Origin: Eunapius fragilis
Taxonomy: Eukaryota > Porifera > Demospongiae > Spongillida > Spongillidae
Assembly (NCBI GenBank): GCA_963681505.1
Contig: OY811971.1
Span: 18,554,234 to 18,618,233, forward strand
Reading direction: 5' to 3'
DNA: 64,000 nucleotides
A program made the position numbers and the translations under genes. Shown here piece after piece: positions 1,313 through 59,759 of this stretch. Below the pieces are notes generated by a model. The model saw nothing but the letters and a program-made list of their open reading frames with translations. It did no database searches and was not told where the DNA came from. Position 1 is the stretch's first letter. Each line of letters starts with the position of its first letter.

Positions 1313-1927
1313 CGTTATGTCCACCGTTTCTGATTTCCAAACTTAATAACTTAGCACTGTATGTTCTGCGGGGGTGGCGGGGGTGTATTAGTTCGACCAC
1401 AACATGTAAATTTAGGCCTGGTTAGCTATCAAGTTTTCAAATTTTCAGTGAACTCGAAGGAATTTTTATCAAATCGTCCTTACGCATCCTAAATTGGACT
1501 ATCCATCACAAAGTTATTACGTACTGAATTTATAATAAGCCATACATTTCAATGCGAGCGTTGCTCGTCCTGGAAAATTTGATAAAGTATCATTTTGACA
1601 CTGTTCCATATATACACATGCAAAAGAAATAAAAGAAAGGCCAAATAGAATTTCAATATACTCAAATGGTATTCAGCTTTCTGAGCAGGATAGGTCAATT
1701 GCCGGTCCAATTGCCTCACTAAATTGGTCTACCTCGAGCCTGATGCACATTATTGCAGATCGCAATAAGGAGACTAGAAAAACTCAGCTTGCATCTTAAC
1801 GGGTAAACATGGTAGTATTTTTCAGCTATGAGCAAGGCCATTCTTTTGTACACGGTTGTGGCTATCGGGCTCATAGCTTCTGAGATTCACAGTTACGTAA
1901 ATCTGGAGGGGATGTACTTCACGGCTT
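1313..1927. other. Non-coding spacer upstream of the ankyrin gene
   Basis: AT-rich sequence with no convincing exon or RNA gene. It must contain the promoter of the minus-strand ankyrin gene, but no specific element could be recognised. Confidence 0.4.
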
Positions 1928-2207
1928 CAGGGGCGGATCCAGGATTTTTGAAAGGGGGGGGGGGGGGGGGGGGGCTTATTATAAAAAAGTTGTTTTCTAA
2001 ATCTGTGCATGGGGCACTAATTAAATACCATTTCGGTTCAAGTAGGAACGATGCTTCACTTTGTGCACATAAGTTAATACAGGTATAGCATTATAAAAAT
2101 ACATGCAGCAGTGCTAGTGAGCGCGTATATACATGTAGTTAATTAGTCGTAATTATTTTCGTTACTTATCCAAAAGGGGGGGGGGGGGGGGGGCTACAGC
2201 CCCCATA

Positions 2208-2243
<36 letters not shown>

Positions 2244-2258
2244 TTGGATACGCCTCTG
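1928..2258. mobile_element. hAT-like MITE with poly-G/poly-C arms
   Basis: The 331-bp element starts CAGGGGCGGATCCAGG and ends with the imperfect inverse CCTTGGATACGCCTCTG. It is flanked directly on both sides by GGCTT, a perfect 5-bp target-site duplication (1923-1927 and 2259-2263). Long G runs (about 1956-1974 and 2177-2193) and a very long C run (about 2211-2243) lie inside the ends. No transposase is encoded. The CAGRGGCGGATCC terminus is common among non-autonomous hAT-type elements of animals, and a 5-bp duplication fits some hAT subgroups; the superfamily is inferred. A second member lies at 42651-43386. Confidence 0.75.
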
Positions 2259-2263
2259 GGCTT

Positions 2264-3334
2264 AGGGCTGGATTGGCAATTAATATAGTCATCAGCACAG
2301 GTAGGAGAACACATAAAAAACAAGCCACCGTTGATCAGGGCAATAGGGTTTTCTAGTACTCCACAGAAGCATACAGCGATAATCGTTACGTCATGAGGGT
2401 ATGGGAATGAGACTGCTGTGATAATATCCATACTGTACAGAAATATACACTTTTCTGTCGTTTGAGGAACAAATTAGCCAGAAAATATGCTCCCAGCAGG
2501 ATATGGAGACGTGGCCTATATGTATACTTTGTAAATTCATGAGGATGATAGTGTGGGAACTTATGCAGCTGCATGATGTTTTCATATGAGTACGTGTGTG
2601 CGCATGAACTCTGGATTCTGGAAACATAAGGTTGGTGAAGGAGTCTAAGTGTTCTGTGCAAGACCACTGGCAGATCTTTTTTCACCCCATTTTTTTCACC
2701 ACATTGCAGGTGAAAAAAATTGACACAATAGCTCAAGACTGATCATCACGGCGGTAACGGCTATATGGCAGTAAAAGTCTGAATTCTGCACTTCATGAAC
2801 CTTTGAGCAGCTTGAACTCAGTTTTTCCTTTTTTAAGGGATTGTTTTCCAGAAGGCGTGGGCCCGCCTCCTCTAAATATAGGGAAATCTCTGCTTATGTT
2901 GGGTGTTATGAGGCTAGTACTGGTGGTGTACACAACGGACGCTGCACCAATATTGTACTGATATGTGATATGCATGAGGCAGAGCATATGACGTTGAGAG
3001 TACACCCTGGTTTGACCCACAACATTAACTGTATGTATTCTATGATCTGGTCCTTGCTTTGAATTATCGCTTTGCGGCTAGTACAAAGCAGAGAATTAAT
3101 CCCCTTCTCTCCGTAACGCTTGCATGTAAGACAGCCGCTACATGTGTCTTCCCTTAAGGATACAGGTCACTCTCTTCACTCCACCATTAAAAACTTCCAC
3201 CTATTACCACTAAAGCTTCTAGCCATGGTATAGATCATAATATGACAGTCCTTAATTGAACATGTCTTTTTTCATTTCCCACAGTCCCCACGTTGTTTAG
3301 TTTCAATGTGTACAACATTAGACAATACCTGTTG
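2264..3334. other. Non-coding spacer with possible Merlin-element relict
   Basis: No gene is supported. A stretch near 2450-2510 (CTGTCGTTTGA, then AAATATGCTCCC) resembles the subterminal part of the Merlin-type element at about 26300-26350, so a decayed copy may be present. Short minus-strand frames here are not protein-like. Confidence 0.3.
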
Positions 3335-4186
3335 AAAACCAGCTGACTTCAAATTTAATAATCATGTACTTTGGTGTGCACACAGTAGAAAGGTTCTCTC
3401 TGTACGTTAAGTCAACATACAAAGTTCTGCTCTTCTCATGAGAAGACACAAAAACTGGTCAAGACCTTCTTGCAAGCATTTCCTCGGTGTGTGTGGGTTT
3501 GCCCTCCACCTACTAACCCAGGAGATTTTTAGTACCTAGCAATGTTAGAAAACAAATCATTAACCATTAGGTGAACATCTTTGTACTTACCTTGGTTTAT
3601 ACTGTCTCTCTGTCTGAACCCTCCTCCTCCTCCTCCCCCTCCTCCTCTACGACGCTCCTCCTGATCACTCTGCTGCTTGGTGGTTGCAATGGCTTCTCTC
3701 TCTCCAGGATGTGGTTAGGCTGGCCATACTGGTCATCCTGGTGATGCTTAGATCCTTGGTCATAAGAGAGCCGCAGGGCCACACCTCCTGGTCTTGTTTG
3801 CCCCACCTGCTGTTGATACTGCTGACCATTATAAAGGCCACCTCCCATCCTCCTCCTCCTCCTCTTCCCCCTGCTCTATGCTGTTGGTTCACCTGCTCCC
3901 TCACTGATGGCACCCTCTGATCGTAGTAAGAGTTCTGCTGCATCTTAAGATGCTTCAACTGCTCATACTCTTGTTGTCTAACAATCTCCATGGCTACAAA
4001 GGCACGCCCCTTAGTTTACACATGTCATCCTGACAACGGACCACACCCACCTCTGCTTTCCTCTTCCTCCTGTCTCTTCTCATGATCAAGAACCAACTTC
4101 GTCATCTCAAGGTGCTCATGCTTCAGAGCCTGGTGGACAGGAATAGAGGTGACATCATACAAGCAACCACACACACACACACACGC

Positions 4187-7063: not shown

Positions 7064-8623
7064 GCTGAAACACTGGATATGCCGGCCCTGCCGTAGTGTG
7101 CAGGTATTCGCGTCGTGGTCAATTTGAGATAATAAAGTAATGTCTTACTTCGCGCTTGCCTACCAGGGTTAGTATTACTATATACTTCAATCACACTAAC
7201 ATCGAAAGTCAGCCGGTCATCAAGACACACCTCCCCCAGTCTGATCGAGGTTATTTATATTATTGCGAGCGGAGTTTTATAATTGCCCATAAATTAACAT
7301 TGTTTTATTCGTTTAATCGTTTGTTAATCGATCCTCAAAAATTACACTCTGCAGCGTTGCTGGACCTTATAGTTGTGCGGATCGAGTCAACTACTGTGAC
7401 CGAATTGTATAACAAACTAGGCCGATTATTCATGAAAAACACATTCGTGATTTGTATGTTGAAAGAAAAAATGTGACACGTCCTGAACCATGTATTTGCC
7501 TTTGCTATAATTGGGATAATCTTTAATTTATCAACATTTCTCATCGTTTTCAACACATGCACCATCTTCAAATGATTACAACTGTGCATTACAAATAGTA
7601 AATGGTGTGAAAATGTTCCATTTCACGCATTGTCTATGGCAGTAGTTAATAACACCCAAGATTAATACATTGCATGTATGATGGAACCAGGCTTTGTGAA
7701 ATTGCTGAAACTGACTGGGAGGTTTGCATTTGTCAGATCTATCACATGGTTAAAATAGTCACGTGGAAACATGGTGCAGAAGCAGTCTTCAACTGAATGG
7801 AGTTGATTGGACCATTTGATGCAGAAATCCTTCATGCAGCTCTGCTTGCAGCTCGCTGACAAAATCCAACATCGAGCACCTCCCACTTTTGCCCGTGCGG
7901 TTCCAAACGGTTGGCATCTTGCGAGGTCTGTACAACGTGCTGTTCTCCACTTAACGTGAATTCATCTGCTTCATCCTCTATCTGGAGGTCTTTTATGTCT
8001 TTTTCTCTATCAAAATCCTCGTTTTATTTCCTGCTCGCTTAGGCTGGCCGGGCGTCCTAAGTATCGACATTGGGTGTAGGCAGAGGCGGAATCATCAAAC
8101 TGACAGGCTGCTGGTCTTTGGAAAATGCGGCTCCATGCACTGATGTCAACAATTTATCCGCAATAGTCCACTGAACTCTGAACTTTTGTTTTGAAGGTTG
8201 TGCCACTATGGTACCTTTAATACGAGTCGTTTTCCACGCGGTACCATACGCGAGCCTTAAACGACACTTTTGATTCCGGTTTTGTTACTGCAGCGTGGAT
8301 CGTACGAATGCCAGTAGCTTGTGCTACGACTTTGCGCGGGAATTGAGCCTAGACCCTGGCACACCATTTGACGCCATAAAAGTTTACTGTACAGCACTTA
8401 TTACATGTTATTCAAAACATTGAATATTGTAAGGGATACCTTACATCCGGCAATTATTGGTTAAAGTACATGGCAAGCTTATATTTTTAAAGATAAATGC
8501 ATGTACAAATGGTGAGTCAATCATGCATGACTGTTTACACAAGCACATCAACTAATTATTCCTATGTAGGTCCTTTACTATTAACTACACATCTCTGATC
8601 AACACTGAATTAAGATGCATAAA
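5661..8623. other. Gene-poor spacer
   Basis: No gene with real support. It contains a 44-bp poly-C tract at about 7019-7062, next to a terminus-like GGATATGCCGGCCCTG that resembles the end of the GGATCC-type MITEs but has no visible partner. The sequence is otherwise AT-rich. Confidence 0.35.
7662..7886 (-). pseudogene. Possible transposase fragment (piggyBac-like start, uncertain)
   Basis: A 74-codon minus-strand frame without ATG contains the phrase FPRDYFNHVIDLTNANL. This is reminiscent of the N-terminal part of piggyBac-type transposases, where a hydrophobic FF...Y/F block precedes an ETN or KTN motif. An acidic stretch (DLQIEDEADEF) lies upstream around 7960-8020 in a different segment. 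No catalytic aspartates are visible, and the frame stops at 7662. This is a weak resemblance only. Confidence 0.25.
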
Positions 8624-10273
8624 CTACCAGTACTTTAATTCATGCAGGTACATGATTATGTAGCGAGGTAAGATAGCAGCTTCTTTGTATAGCAATAACT
8701 CAGCATATTCCAAGCCACCTGTAGGCAGGCCATAAACACTATCACAGTCTGATGGAGCTGTGAGGTTAACACAGTAGCGCATTACAACGTGTTTCTTCCC
8801 AGGAAGTACATCACAAAGGAGCATTGATCTGTATTTTGTATTTTCCGTCGTGTATAAGTGAGATGTGGAGGAGTTGGGAGCAAGATACAACCCTGGACCT
8901 AGGTTTGGCTGACTAAGAGACTTTTTTACGTCACAATCAAGTTTCATTCCATGTCGGCTTATACCACACACGCTGCAATGAGAATTTTCACACAGGGTCT
9001 TGGTTTTGTCTAGGTAACATTCCATCCTAGTACCATGATAATACTCCTCCACACCCACAGGAGACCCTTTGTTTGTTAGAGTGGCTTTGTAGGCATCCCA
9101 TCGTGACTGCAGTTCATTACTGACGACAACTTCAAAGATGTACTCTACCTTTGGACACAGACCTTCTTCCAGTGCCCATTTTTTCTGGAACTTTGAGCAA
9201 ACGATATTGTAAATATCCGAACCAGCTATAACCTCACGGCAGAATGACTCATAGCGCAGAAGCAGTGATGTAAGTCTTTTGCTGCTCACTTCAAGTAGTT
9301 TTTTGTCCTTTTCTGAAGCCTGTAACCTCTCTCTAAGCTGAGTGAGTTCTTGCCTAATGGATTTTAGCTCTTTTGTCTGTTTTCTATCTTCGTCTACAGC
9401 TTCAAAGTATTGTCTGCTCCTCTTTATCTCCAAAACATGAGAACACAAATCTTTTGATGTTGGTCTGCTATTCTCATCATAGCACAGACATTTGAGTGCA
9501 AGTTTTAAAAGTGGATGACCAGGCTCTATCAAATCAATGTGGGACTTGCGACGCTCAATTTCAGGAATTGGTACTTCAACAGGATGTGGGTAATTTGGGT
9601 CATTTACTCTCTTGCATGCAGATCCTGGATCAGGAAACTTGCGGGTCAGTGTCTGTATTGTTACCACACCAAGTGAAAAGCAGTCTAGCTTGTTTGAGTA
9701 CACAGGGTGGTCCCTTAGAGCCTCTGGTGGCATGTACACGATACAACCTGGTGCCTGAGTGAGACGCAACATATTTTGATTGGATCCTATCAACTTGGAC
9801 ATGCCAAAGTCTGTGACTTTTGCTCTCTTATCCTTAGTCAGCAGAACATTATTGCTGGAGAGGTCACGATGGATAATATTGTTAGAGTGGAGATAGGCAA
9901 GGGCCAGGGATACATCGTGAAATATGTCGACCTGATAGTGAAATTGGAGTGGGCATGGGGACTCCTCCAAGTAGGAGGTGAGGCTTTGTTCCATCAGCTC
10001 AATGATAAGAACTGGATTTTGGGGACCCTCGTCGTAAGTACCGAGATATTGAATGATGTTAGGATGCTTAACGGAGCGAAGCAGCTGGCACTCTTCATGA
10101 AACTTTTGGATGGTCCAATCACTCATAATTGTCGGATGCAGGAGCTTAGCTGCACACAACAGTTCGTCACATTGCGCCTTGCATACCATTCCGTAGGATC
10201 CGGTTCCAAGCGGCTGGTCTCTAAAAATGTGGATCTTCTGAAAGCAGCTACCGTAAGCCATTATTTTCGCCAT
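8624..10273 (-). CDS. Protein kinase / coiled coil / PARP-like ADP-ribosyltransferase fusion protein
   Basis: A single 549-codon exon with ATG at 10273. Residues about 18-290 form a complete protein kinase domain: glycine loop GTGSYGMV (23-30), VAIK-type lysine in CAAKLL (Lys43), HRDLSSNNVLL (136-145, Asp137), DFG (155-157) and an APE-like MPPEAL (181-186). The HRDLSxxN form and the overall style resemble TKL/mixed-lineage or receptor-interacting kinases. Residues about 292-335 are strongly charged heptad-like sequence (coiled coil). Residues about 375-549 resemble a PARP catalytic fold: YYHGT (His413), GPGLYLAP (Tyr463), DSVYGLP, EYAELLLY (Glu522) and LPRYIIMYL. These sit where the His-Tyr-Glu triad, the DSV loop and the last strand occur in PARPs. 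A CxxC pair (Cys433, Cys436) between His and Tyr is unusual. The protein could phosphorylate substrates and ADP-ribosylate itself or partners; this is inferred. The absence of introns is odd beside intron-rich neighbours. Confidence 0.85.
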   Translation of the reverse strand: MAKIMAYGSCFQKIHIFRDQPLGTGSYGMVCKAQCDELLCAAKLLHPTIMSDWTIQKFHEECQLLRSVKHPNIIQYLGTYDEGPQNPVLIIELMEQSLTSYLEESPCPLQFHYQVDIFHDVSLALAYLHSNNIIHRDLSSNNVLLTKDKRAKVTDFGMSKLIGSNQNMLRLTQAPGCIVYMPPEALRDHPVYSNKLDCFSLGVVTIQTLTRKFPDPGSACKRVNDPNYPHPVEVPIPEIERRKSHIDLIEPGHPLLKLALKCLCYDENSRPTSKDLCSHVLEIKRSRQYFEAVDEDRKQTKELKSIRQELTQLRERLQASEKDKKLLEVSSKRLTSLLLRYESFCREVIAGSDIYNIVCSKFQKKWALEEGLCPKVEYIFEVVVSNELQSRWDAYKATLTNKGSPVGVEEYYHGTRMECYLDKTKTLCENSHCSVCGISRHGMKLDCDVKKSLSQPNLGPGLYLAPNSSTSHLYTTENTKYRSMLLCDVLPGKKHVVMRYCVNLTAPSDCDSVYGLPTGGLEYAELLLYKEAAILPRYIIMYLHELKYW

Positions 10274-12265
10274 CTGCGCTGCAGGCTATTAATAATTTCA
10301 ATGAAATTATTTACGTCCACAATAGATGTAGACGAGCCACGGTGTTGTACTCCGGATGTGTAATTGCGTAATACAGTCTGACCTTGCTAAGAGCGCCACG
10401 TTTGTTCCCCTAGGGCATAGATTGTACATTGTAGACATATATATAGATAGTACCCGCATTAACCGTGAATATAATTTTCAATACATCTAACGAAGGAATG
10501 CGCCCATAATGGGTACGGAGGTCAGACTGTACTTTTGTGGCGGACTGAACTGTTAATTGTTTATGTGGTAATGGGGATTGCCCAAGGCGCCCTGCGCTGA
10601 ACTCAACGGGGGCGCTTTTGTCTGCGCCGCATTATTGTGTTGGCTTATCGGAACCTGCGGAAGCAGGTTCCATATAGGATTGATGCGGTATAATGCATGT
10701 CATTAAAAAAACGTGACTCACGTCTGGAGGGACGACGGTGAATCGGATCATTTCCCTCTTTGTCGCTATCGAACGATAACACAAATAAGAACAGTTTAGC
10801 GTTGGTTCTGTGTCACAATAGTGCGCGCGTTTAGAGAACGAAAATACTCGTGCCCATGTCTCGTACCCGGTCCAACTGTTATTCACCGTCATTTCTATTC
10901 TTCATCTTCTTCCTTCCGCCATGAAGAACTCGAGCTAGAAACGTTGTCCACGAGCGCCAATAGCATCAATCGCTTCAGCATATATCCGGATTTTATCCTT
11001 GGGGGTCAGAAACATGTATAACGCATCAGGCGAAATAAAAAAGCGAGTAGTCCACAAACAAAAAATCTCGTACCTGACCATACATCTACTATGCTATTCA
11101 CTGACATACGGTAAGACACACCTATTAATACCAGTTTAACAAGGCGAGCACGATGTCTAGATGGTTATACGTACTTTTACATCACCACTACGTGCGGTGA
11201 TGTAATCCACCCGCAGCTGTGGGAATCAGGGGTGATGTAACTGGGAATCACAGCTGTGGGAATCAGGGTCTGGGTACGAGACTAAGCCACAAGGTTCTAC
11301 CAGAAAGATGGTCTATGAGCGTGACAGCGGCACTGACAGCTATGAGGCTGAACCAGAAAAGTAGGAGACCTATGAGCGCGACAGCCACCTCTCACTCAGT
11401 AAGTCCAGAAAATGATTGGTAATGTACTTTTAAAAGTCTACCTAAGCAGTTGCTAGTGGCTCCGCCGGCTATGTGCATGTATATTAAAACTGTCCGATTT
11501 ACTAAGCGAATTCAATACGAGACCCGACGTCCAGTCGCAAAGCTTGCTCCAAAGATGACGCATTGCCGTAGGGTCTTAGAACTACCAACAGAACTACCAT
11601 CAAATTCAAAAAGGTAAGATCAATAGCATATATGAACCTCGCTTTATCAATTCGCGCGTGGGTTCACGTTGTAGATTGGATTGGAAGCACGTCACGTGAG
11701 AGCATACTCTATATTGGCACTCCATGATACGGTAAGAACTATCCCTTGATTTCTGCCATCCTATGCGACTATTAGGTTTTAAAGCATGTTCGTGTAGCTT
11801 GGTCTGTGCTGCATCCCACTGCGTAATTCGTTTCAAACCAGGTGGATGTGGATTGCGCAAGGGATAGTTCTTACTGTATCACGGAGTACCACACTATAGA
11901 AGTATGCTCTCATGTGGAAGTGCTTCTAATCCTCTATATGGTTGTAGTAAGGGAGGTTCATTATCTGATGTATGTGTAAGGCTTCACATGCAGGTCTGTG
12001 CATGCCTTGTTAACACCTGGCGTGCATGCTGGTGAAATTAATCACACTGCTATTTTACATATACCTGTGGCTAAAATGTAACGTAGGTAAAAGAAATGTT
12101 TTTTATGACTGCAATCATTTCCTATAGCTACTCCCTGTATGAACCCAGGAGTATAACGGTGGTGCTTGAAAAAGCTCCGCAAGCTGTACTGTAATAGTGT
12201 CCATTGGACTTCCACCAGTGGACACCCAGCTGCTAGCTTCATCAAGTTCCCTTCATGTTGGGTAG
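10274..12265. other. Non-coding spacer upstream of the kinase-PARP gene
   Basis: No protein-like frame or RNA gene recognised. It includes a short tandem unit at about 11213-11270 (CAGCTGTGGGAATCAGGG twice) and a foldback element at 11669-11938, listed separately. Confidence 0.4.
11669..11938. repeat. Foldback (inverted-repeat) element
   Basis: Two arms of about 75 bp face each other. The left arm has GAGAGCATACTCTATATTGG and ATACGGTAAGAACTATCCCTT. The right arm, read in reverse, has GAGAGCATACTTCTATAGTG and ATACAGTAAGAACTATCCCTT. The spacer is about 115 bp, with no coding content. Probably a non-autonomous DNA element; no clear target duplication was found. Confidence 0.7.
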
Positions 12266-51457: not shown

Positions 51458-54091
51458 GCGTGCGTATCAACATATGGACTGAACCAAGAGTGTACTGTTA
51501 AATTTCCATAATCATCATTATGACATGAGGTGTTACACATTTGTTTATAAATGTGCTGCTAGTATGTCTGTTTTTTTTTATTTCAGCGTTTGGCTGGGGA
51601 GTTTTGGACAATACTGGACTCTTTCGATTCCTTTCTACGACGACTTTTTTCCTCACGCTTTTCTCTCTGCATGCTGCATGTACGACGTTATTATGTACAT
51701 GATGCCCAATGTACACTATTACATTTGTTTGTATGTACATTAACGGTACATTAATGGTGATGATACGCCACGCAATCTGTATAATGCACGAAAAATTGCA
51801 TCGGGCCTCTAGTCTATACAAACCTCACGACAAATCCATGGCAACGAATTATAATAAACAGATCTACAATAATCATCATGTCAACATGCTCTACATGCAT
51901 ATATGCTGCTGGAAAGAAAAAAAAAAAAGAGGGAAAAAAAAAAGAAGCTATCTAAGGGAAGAGAATCTTTGACACGTGCAATGGAATAAGCAATCCCCGT
52001 CACTACAGACCAATCTCAAATGGGTTAGAATAAGTCCACCAATATACATACTTGTCAATACATTGGTTTTTGGTATATTTCTGCGATGACCCCACCACAT
52101 ACCCACCTACTGTGCACTTAGCAAATGACCAAATGCTCCCCCTCTTCCCCCCCCCCCCCTCCACCCCACCCCTCTCCACCTCACCTGTGCTGGGGTACAT
52201 ATGGTATGTTCACCACCGGCTGCATCATGGAGCTCCTCCGGTCCTCCAAAGACATCCTCATTGTCCCCTTGCTCCCCGAACCCTGCCCTAATCTCGCCCC
52301 GCCTCCCTCCTCCTCCTCCTCCTCCTGGCTCGCATCCCCAGCATCCGCATCACTGTCCTCCAACGACCCATCGTTGTCGCCCCCTCTCCTCGCCCCCCGG
52401 GAGTCCTCATCCTTCTCTTTCCCCTCCTCTCCATCCTTCTCATCGTCATCCGACCCCTCCTCTTCCTCTTCCTCCTTCCTTTTATGGTCCACACTCATGT
52501 CCCCCTCCTCCACCACCACCTTCTCCTTCCCCTCCTCTTCCTCCTCCACCTCCTCCCCTCCTCCTCCTCCTCCTCCTCCACCAACAGTCTCCGCCCCCTT
52601 CCCCCTGGCGGCAGCCACCATCATCATCTTCTTCTTCACAGACACGGGCGTGTGGGCGTCGCAGTAGGCCAGCTTCTTGATCTCGGCCCCACCCCTCGCC
52701 GGAGCCTCGATCTTCATGTGCAGACCGGCCTGCTGGGCGCAGGTCACGTGGAACGCCACGTAGCAGTTGGCCTTGGCGCACTGGATGCAGGCCCCGCCCC
52801 TCCTCCTGCACACGTAGCACGTGAGCTTCCACCGGGCCTGGGGGATCTCCCTGATCCCGTCGATGGGCTCCAGGAAGACCGTGTTGGCAAACTGGACCTC
52901 CGGTATCCAGAGGGCGCACGACACGTGCGCCCACTGCCCCTCCACCGTCTGCTTGAAGGCGCCGCCCTTGTTGGGACAGAGGAGGCAGTCCACCGCCCTG
53001 GACGGGGACTGCAGGCACCGCCTGCACAGCCACTGGCCCTCCGGTATGTAAGGGACGCCGTAGCACTCCTGGTGGACGGCCAGGTTGCACATGTCGCAGA
53101 AGAGGATGGCGTTGGTGTTGTGGCACTCGCCGTCGTTGCATATGCAGCAGACGGCGTTCTCGTCAATGTTGTAAGGGTTTCCGGCCTCGCCGTTCTCCCC
53201 CACGGTGCGCACCTCGAAGAAGCACTCCTTCTCCAGGCGGTCCATGAGGACCTCGAAGGCGTCCTGGGGGACGGACGTGAGCCCCTGGGACTTGCGGTCC
53301 TCGTTCACCAGGGAGAGCCACTGGTAGTCTTCCTCGTCCATGTCGTACTCCACCATCTCGTCCAAGTCTTCGGAGGTCTGCTCCACAAAGCGGTAGTAGG
53401 CTGGGTCACGGGCTGGGGCATCCGAGTAGTCGAAAGACGAGTCGAGGATTGTGAAGTCGGCGACGAGGCGGGCGATGGAGGAAGAGGAGTGGTGGGCGGG
53501 GTCGGAGGAGGCGTGGTCGGTGGAGGATGGGGCCTTCTTGGAAGAGCGTCGCTTGCCTTTGTTCTTGGAGGGGGCGGATTTGCCGCTCTTCGGGGTCGAC
53601 GTCGCCTTCGTCTCGCACTTGGTCCTGCGCTGAGGCGTGCGGAGGGAGGTGGAAGAAGGGGTGGTGGCGGGAGTCGGCGCGCTTGGGTCGAGCGGGTCTT
53701 CCGCGGGCGTTTCGGCGGGTTCTTTTGCCGCCTCTTCGTCGCCCTCTTCCTCGCTCAGGTGCACGGTGTCCAGGTCATGGTCGATCTCTATGCGGTAGTA
53801 CTCGTTGTTGAATTCCACCTCCACCATGCGCTGCGACTCTGCCCACGTGAGATCCCGCCTGGCCCGCCGCCTCACTATCCCGGGCGACCCCGGGGTGCCG
53901 CGAGGACTGACGCCCTCACCGCCCTTGTTCCTGCACCTCGGGACCCTGGTGGGGGGGCCGATCTGCCCGAGGTGGTACATGATGCCGGTCAAGCTTCGGT
54001 AGTTTTTGAGACAGGCGGGGCATTTGAAGGGAACCTGGTGACCCCTGATGCTTTGGACGATAGCGGCGAGGTCGTATTCTTCGTTCTCCAT
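44713..54091 (-). CDS. BRPF: BRPF-family bromodomain and PHD finger protein (MOZ/MORF or HBO1 acetyltransferase scaffold)
   Basis: Ten exons: 52185-54091, 51245-51404, 50907-51035, 50519-50647, 49583-49949, 49260-49388, 48202-48297, 46630-47895, 45088-45233, 44713-44902 (about 1505 aa). Domain order is that of BRPF1/BRD1/BRPF3: an N-terminal zinc-finger-like [21 protein letters not shown]1-like [20 protein letters not shown] and [11 protein letters not shown]1 ([20 protein letters not shown]), an extended PHD ([36 protein letters not shown]), a bromodomain ([12 protein letters not shown], [16 protein letters not shown]) and a C-terminal PWWP ([19 protein letters not shown], then [17 protein letters not shown]). 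The protein reads unmodified H3 tails, acetyl-lysine and H3K36 methylation and scaffolds KAT6/KAT7 complexes. The start is the first ATG (Met-Glu-Asn-Glu-Glu). Exon 8 (His/Pro/Ser-rich linker) shifts frame near 47020: its length is one base too long for the flanking phases, see findings. Exon 1 has a long acidic/Lys/Gly tail. Confidence 0.93.
47925..48110. repeat. GGTGGAGGGAGAGGATGGGGAGA minisatellite in BRPF intron 7
   Basis: About seven imperfect 23-bp units next to the exon 8 acceptor. Confidence 0.88.
48562..48846. repeat. 18-bp minisatellite in BRPF intron 6, 16 copies
   Basis: The unit CCCTAACACCAGACACCT repeats 16 times almost perfectly; three adjacent units carry ACATCT instead of ACACCT. 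All six frames read as short peptide repeats, which is incidental. Confidence 0.95.
50235..50505. repeat. CACTTCACCCCTCCCACCCC minisatellite in BRPF intron 4
   Basis: About 14 copies of a 19-20-bp pyrimidine-rich unit next to the exon 4 donor. Confidence 0.92.
50722..50905. repeat. 33-bp repeat duplicating the exon 3 end and splice donor of BRPF
   Basis: About five units. In the gene sense each contains CTCAAACAGCAGGTGGGTGG, i.e. the end of exon 3 (CTCAAGCAGGAGCAG) plus its GTGGGT donor. The array is open in the coding frame, 11 residues per unit ([11 protein letters not shown]). Confidence 0.88.
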
Positions 54092-54582
54092 CTCTCGGTC
54101 CGCTCTCAAAAGCAACAGAACATGGTTTGTGAATTATTCCTTTTTTACTTATAGGCCAATAAGTGCCCACCAGAGCTAAGAAGCCTAATGAGTTACCAAG
54201 GAAAGGTTTTTTTTTTTAAACGTACGTCCTCGTTCGGCTGGTTTCTTCCACGTGTGATACCTTGAGTAGCCTTTCCGTTTTCCGATTATCCTTAGCGATG
54301 CTCTCTGCTTACACAACGAGTTCTCTATTTCATATGTGACTTCGCGCCAAATAGACTAAAATTCCAAATTGGCGGCCATTTTCTGCACTTTCGAAGAAAA
54401 AAAAAAAAAAGCGCTCTAATAAAACAGCACATGACCTCACGCGATTATTGATCGGGTAAACATATTTCCTTTGAGGCGTGGCCAGGTTTAATCCTGTTCC
54501 TCGCAGTCTTGCACTTCCTTCCGTTAAGCAGGGTTGTTTGTATTTGGAAAAGCATATAAGCTTCGTAGAATTTGAAGACATC
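54092..54582. promoter_or_regulatory. Shared spacer between divergent BRPF and ALAS genes
   Basis: 491 bp between the two start codons must carry both promoters. A CpG-containing block and poly-A/T runs are visible; no TATA-type element is claimed. Confidence 0.5.

Positions 54583-59759
<5,177 letters not shown>

Follow-up and report, generated by a model that had tools for sequence, protein, structure and literature searches.

Can a single sponge gene encode both a protein kinase and a PARP-type ADP-ribosyltransferase (ART), and, if so, is it a working gene or a chance juxtaposition? The question arises from a minus-strand frame in a 64,000-nucleotide stretch of the Eunapius fragilis genome (contig OY811971.1, positions 18,554,234 to 18,618,233; hereafter the window). 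This frame runs stop-free from an ATG at 10273 to a stop at 8624 and specifies 549 aa, in line with the initial annotation, which had described one uninterrupted frame joining a kinase to an ART. By simple arithmetic, the chance of a random 549-codon open frame is about (61/64)^549, i.e., near 4e-12. Judging from the sequence, the kinase–PARP fusion is genuine and probably functional. Its parts and surroundings, which include DNA repeats on both sides (same-genome DNA comparison), are as follows.

8624..10273, minus strand (OY811971.1:18562857-18564506): kinase–ART fusion gene, 549 aa in a single frame
9437..10216, minus strand: protein kinase domain, aa 20-279 (Pkinase E 2.2e-45; PDB matches)
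10145-10147, 9863-9865, and 9809-9811, minus strand: kinase catalytic residues K43, HRD Asp137, and DFG Asp155, respectively
9236..9427, minus strand: charged linker, aa 283-346, possible short coiled coil (tblastn ends and sequences of paralogues)
8627..9241, minus strand: PARP-type ART domain, aa 345-549 (PF00644, PDB profile, alignments, profile-profile comparison)
9035-9037, 8885-8887, and 8699-8701, minus strand: ART triad H413, Y463, and E525, respectively
8966..9019, minus strand: four-Cys insert (C419, C428, C433, C436) between the catalytic His and Tyr (alignment)
8488..8623, minus strand: 3' flank common to the gene and a decayed copy at C1:19796238-19797431 (DNA matches)
8200..8464, no strand assigned: dispersed repeat 3' of the gene (many same-genome matches, the longer ones at 75-96%), which may extend past 8200, the end of the query
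10372..10531, no strand assigned: dispersed repeat 5' of the gene (many same-genome matches at 75-84%)

An hmmscan search against Pfam, which had been suggested as a check of the fusion, placed both Pkinase and PF00644 (PARP) above their cut-offs in one chain. The kinase match is the stronger of the two, covering aa 20-279 at 155.6 bits against a cut-off of 31.7 (E 2.2e-45). The catalytic motifs that had been named for this half (Lys43, the HRD Asp137, and the DFG Asp155) are indeed present as K43, H135-R-D137, and D155-FG, with N142 alongside, and the Pfam match together with K43, D137, and D155 assigns the domain to the protein kinase superfamily. The nearest solved kinase domains with a single clean match are those of TKL-type kinases, namely B-Raf, then TNNI3K, as well as CTR1; the PDB list as a whole is headed by an EGFR structure, which gives two equal, partial domain hits at 50 bits apiece. 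The likeness has its limits. The sponge HRDLSSNN has a Ser at the position where the RAF match has a Lys, and Pfam detected none of the RAF or TNNI3K accessory domains in the sponge frame, whose C-terminal part is an ART. In a kinase tree, the window kinase was not placed with any single paralogue group. On the opposite strand, an antisense frame of 195-214 aa (9719/9776-10363, plus strand) lies over the kinase and is taken as a shadow of its coding strand.

The C-terminal half requires more support. In the full chain, PF00644 matches aa 355-513 at 30.9 bits (cut-off 26.7, E 2.4e-7), a modest single-sequence match whose best stretch ends at profile position 140 of 199; searching the ART region alone raises this to 35.2 bits against the same cut-off. 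Eight same-genome ART domains, i.e., the window gene and seven paralogues, were aligned into a profile, and all eight also match PF00644 individually at E up to 0.1. Against the PDB, this profile finds PARP4 (8e-13), tankyrase-1 (6e-11), PARP3 (1.6e-9), and PARP1 (3e-5 to 7e-5). None of the leading matches (PARP4 and the tankyrases) reaches back to the His region, as they set in at profile positions 90-112; that region is matched only by PARP10 and PARP12, whose rows are weaker (1e-7 to 7e-6). A profile-profile comparison that includes the His region gives 98.1% with four PARP-like domains of this genome, among which one pair is 97% alike. The proposed fusion of a kinase to a PARP is thus upheld by curated-family and profile matches and, in addition, by a second, decayed copy in which the junction is the same and to which we return below.

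The initial annotation had also assigned a His413/Tyr463/Glu522 triad, of which two members stand: four other PARP-like genes of this genome have their His and Tyr in the alignment columns of H413 and Y463. The third has to be moved. All seven aligned ART paralogues have Asn or Gly in place of E522, which rules it out as the catalytic Glu, and the family Glu is E525, three residues later, which is Glu in seven of the eight ART domains (Met in the remaining one) and aligns with the Glu of the tankyrase YAEYVIY. The DSV loop, on the other hand, was correctly recognized, as D511-S512-V513 is kept across the eight domains, with Asn replacing D511 in a single case and Ile replacing V513 in a single case. 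With PF00644 above its gathering cut-off and an H-Y-E triad of H413, Y463, and E525, the domain belongs to the PARP (ARTD) superfamily. G414, S471, and Y474 sit at what we take to be the offsets of PARP1 G863, S904, and Y907, and S471 presumably fits the PARP1-type serine.

Among known PARPs, PARP4 (vault PARP) and the tankyrases give the best PDB profile matches to this sponge ART family and have a similar DSV segment; the window protein differs from them by its N-terminal kinase and by the four-Cys insert between His and Tyr. Tankyrases combine ankyrin repeats and a SAM domain with their catalytic domain, and neither is among the Pfam matches to the sponge protein at E up to 10. The sponge motifs HGT, YLA, and YAE are near those of tankyrase-1 (HGS, YFA, YAE) and share HGT with PARP3 (HGT, YFA, QSE), as these are given in PMC7955679. 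PARP4 carries VIT and vWA domains, and forms without them are described as well (PMC4245714); Pfam matches to the sponge protein at E up to 10 include neither domain.

Is this ART half then an enzyme? The fused gene could be real and its ART half non-catalytic, an NAD+- or ADP-ribose-binding module or scaffold that only regulates or localizes the kinase. Such losses have precedents, since one paralogue (L027) has lost the catalytic Glu and several PARP clades are reported to have variant triads (Citarelli et al.). We nevertheless regard this explanation as unlikely, given that the window gene retains H413, G414, Y463, S471, Y474, and E525 alike and has a Ser at position 471 versus Cys or Ala in the seven aligned paralogues.

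Two further elements of the protein need qualifying. The insert with its CxxC motif had been considered an extra of this gene. C419, C428, C433, and C436 are, however, invariant in all eight aligned ART domains. The insert therefore characterizes the family as a whole and is not peculiar to the window gene; perhaps it forms a metal site. A coiled coil had also been placed between the two domains, a claim that a crude heptad test did not bear out: of 10000 shuffles of aa 283-346, 1551 did as well as the real sequence, a non-significant result.

Both halves have many relatives in the genome (218,937,333 bases searched, on 24 contigs, C1 and so on). The whole protein yields at least 80 matches, a lower bound because scoring covered 79 of the 307 first-look candidates, and the ART alone yields 20 matches including fragments, from 21 candidates that were all scored. 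Kinase relatives are 52-69% identical over the kinase domain. Paralogues that are single-frame over the kinase occur on C13 (L009), C1, C15, C6, C19, C12, and C9, the single frames measuring 402, 430, 421, 353, 567, 1199, and 730 codons, and the members read include a C15 set with 349-353-codon frames; others are broken (L016 over two frames, L018 by stops). Several of these intronless kinases possess a charged C-terminal tail, and, except for the decayed copy L019, those read are devoid of ART similarity (tblastn). The C9 paralogue (L017) carries Kelch repeats after its kinase in the 730-codon frame (1768-3957 on the minus strand of the locus stretch; Pfam), which is another module swap in the same kinase family. 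For L015 and L014, the kinase is the only Pfam match; the 1199-codon frame of L015 (C12; 765-4361, minus strand) additionally has a long repeat rich in Gly, Pro, Ser, and Gln, and Pfam matches nothing in its C-terminal region. Contig 18 holds at least 25 further kinase matches (C18:40041-2220017), 36-44% identical to the window kinase, and is the site of a large kinase expansion.

The ART-only genes (C1 at 6.8, 16.6-16.7, and 18.8 Mb; C10, C2, and C6) are 36-48% identical to the window ART over the main match, share the four Cys in 7/7 aligned domains and the H-Y-E triad in 6/7, and lack kinase similarity in the stretch read around each of the 11 loci. At nine of these 11, the ART lies in one frame (L020, L021, L023, L024, L025, and L027-L030). 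It is split by a TAG in L022 and L026, two closely similar genes on C1 at 18.83 and 18.81 Mb, where the in-frame TAG follows just after HGT (L022:3417-3419 and the matching site in L026); L022 is otherwise open over the ART, and L026 also shifts frame near aa 505. In L027 (C6:8942905), which has Met at the catalytic Glu, the ART ends a 767-codon frame whose N-terminal part is without a Pfam match. Fifteen stretches were read for both halves (L001, L019-L030, L044, and L045, leaving out two further weak ART places). ART similarity was present in 13 of them, two of which, the window gene and L019, also had kinase similarity; with stretches 4.6 to 8 kb long, any kinase exon farther off would have escaped notice.

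How could these parts have come together? Kinase homology stops and ART homology starts near aa 340-350. In the C15 paralogues, similarity to the window kinase extends to aa 344-345, and the frames stop about five codons beyond. Seven of eight ART paralogues show, by eye, a splice-acceptor-like stretch ending in AG just upstream of the ART homology; the exception is L024, and the signal is weak in L022 and L026. These observations place the junction near the ancestral kinase C-terminus and the start of an ART exon. An intronless TKL-like kinase may thus have acquired, in frame and close to where its ancestral C-terminus lay, an ART exon of a four-Cys PARP-like family. Joining a single-frame kinase to a one-frame ART would give an intronless gene without any special event. 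The lack of introns had been read as a sign of retroposition or transfer, an interpretation that loses its ground here because most kinase paralogues are single-frame and the ART is in one frame at nine of 11 loci.

Further evidence on the fusion comes from L019 (C1:19796238-19797431), a decayed kinase–ART copy that lies 1.2 Mb from the gene, is about 85% identical to it at the DNA level, and has the same junction. The two align with 84.7% identity over 1004 columns, which begin at codon ~106, span the junction, and extend into the ART; a second match, at 80.7%, takes in the 3' end of the gene plus 136 bases past the stop. L019 has accumulated 12 frame-shifting indels (not counting two gaps that precede the homology, a third that follows the stop, and the in-frame ones of 3 and 237) and 4 stops, none of which occur in the window gene; its ART half holds 4 of the frame-shifts and 2 of the stops, or 6 of the 16 disruptions. 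Over 338 compared codons (108-549), the copies differ by 24 synonymous and 54 amino-acid differences. The paralogues side with the gene at 30 of these 54, with L019 at 8, and are undecided at 16, where it should be kept in mind that distant paralogues as reference favour conserved sites and that codons 56-107, outside the homology, were excluded. The 30 versus 8 split is significant (two-sided binomial p 5e-4), and the ART half alone shows the same tendency, with 14 differences at which the paralogues side with the gene versus 4 with L019. As L019 is disrupted and the differences are mostly on its side, the fused frame has probably been maintained by selection, and both halves of the window gene look constrained.

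These data also bear on the possibility of a non-functional chimaera, whose halves would be transcribed separately or never and whose frame would be open by chance or recency. That the sole other kinase–ART copy found is a pseudogene would suit this idea. By sequence comparison, however, the junction is older than a duplication now about 15% diverged, and in that time the other copy has gained all of its disruptions, in the ART half too, and the window gene none; we therefore hold a non-functional chimaera to be quite improbable. Viral or microbial transfer, or recent retroposition of an already spliced fusion mRNA, would account for the intronless gene and the 5'-truncated decayed copy, yet is very improbable, as both halves are multi-copy in this genome (which makes recent transfer unlikely), viral, prokaryotic, and phage collections yielded no confirmed relative of the ART half (14 viral and 13 prokaryotic pattern stretches all failed the tblastn check), and no long poly(A) tract was seen by eye past the shared 3' flank in either copy.

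Taken as a whole, the explanation that we find reasonably likely is that of a sponge host fusion gene, kept by selection. Neither set of catalytic residues shows a gap, which makes a bifunctional writer the likeliest arrangement, one whose kinase arm would either control the ART arm or work alongside it. In such a protein, both domains would be active; the kinase would autophosphorylate or respond to some upstream signal. Phosphorylation at the linker or within the ART domain could control NAD+-dependent ADP-ribosylation, so that one protein would convert a kinase signal into an ADP-ribose mark. The coupling of the two modifications that the initial annotation expected, in signalling or immunity, would be a possible role. 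Our guess is that mono- or short-chain modification is likelier than long poly(ADP-ribose). A more far-reaching version, which we offer tentatively and rather doubt, has kinase and ADP-ribosyltransferase gating each other in one chain and sees the gene as a product of a kinase family that repeatedly gains C-terminal modules (ART, Kelch) as a fast-evolving signalling or immune repertoire.

Searches of open-access PMC literature brought up no description of a kinase–PARP fusion. In two PARP surveys, no passage containing the word kinase names a kinase–PARP protein; the word appears twice in PMC4245714 and twice, both times among the references, in PMC2964712. What is new is the combination of two known domain families, not the kind of enzyme. 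Work on the cross-talk of phosphorylation with ADP-ribosylation usually deals with separate enzymes. A natural single-chain kinase–PARP would offer a compact system for testing whether one mark controls the other, and a sponge fusion for which both part families are expanded shows domain combinations arising and being kept.

Some other features of the window deserve a brief mention. A tandem array at 1-1157 consists of 5.7 copies of a 204-bp repeat, and one of its minus-strand frames, translated with stops as X, gave no Pfam match. On the minus strand, 52181-54133 holds a 650-codon frame with EPL1 and PHD fingers (Pfam), which we take to be BRPF-like. Finally, an aminotransferase class I/II stretch (Pfam) lies at 57945-59378 on the plus strand and is presumably a 5-aminolevulinate synthase.
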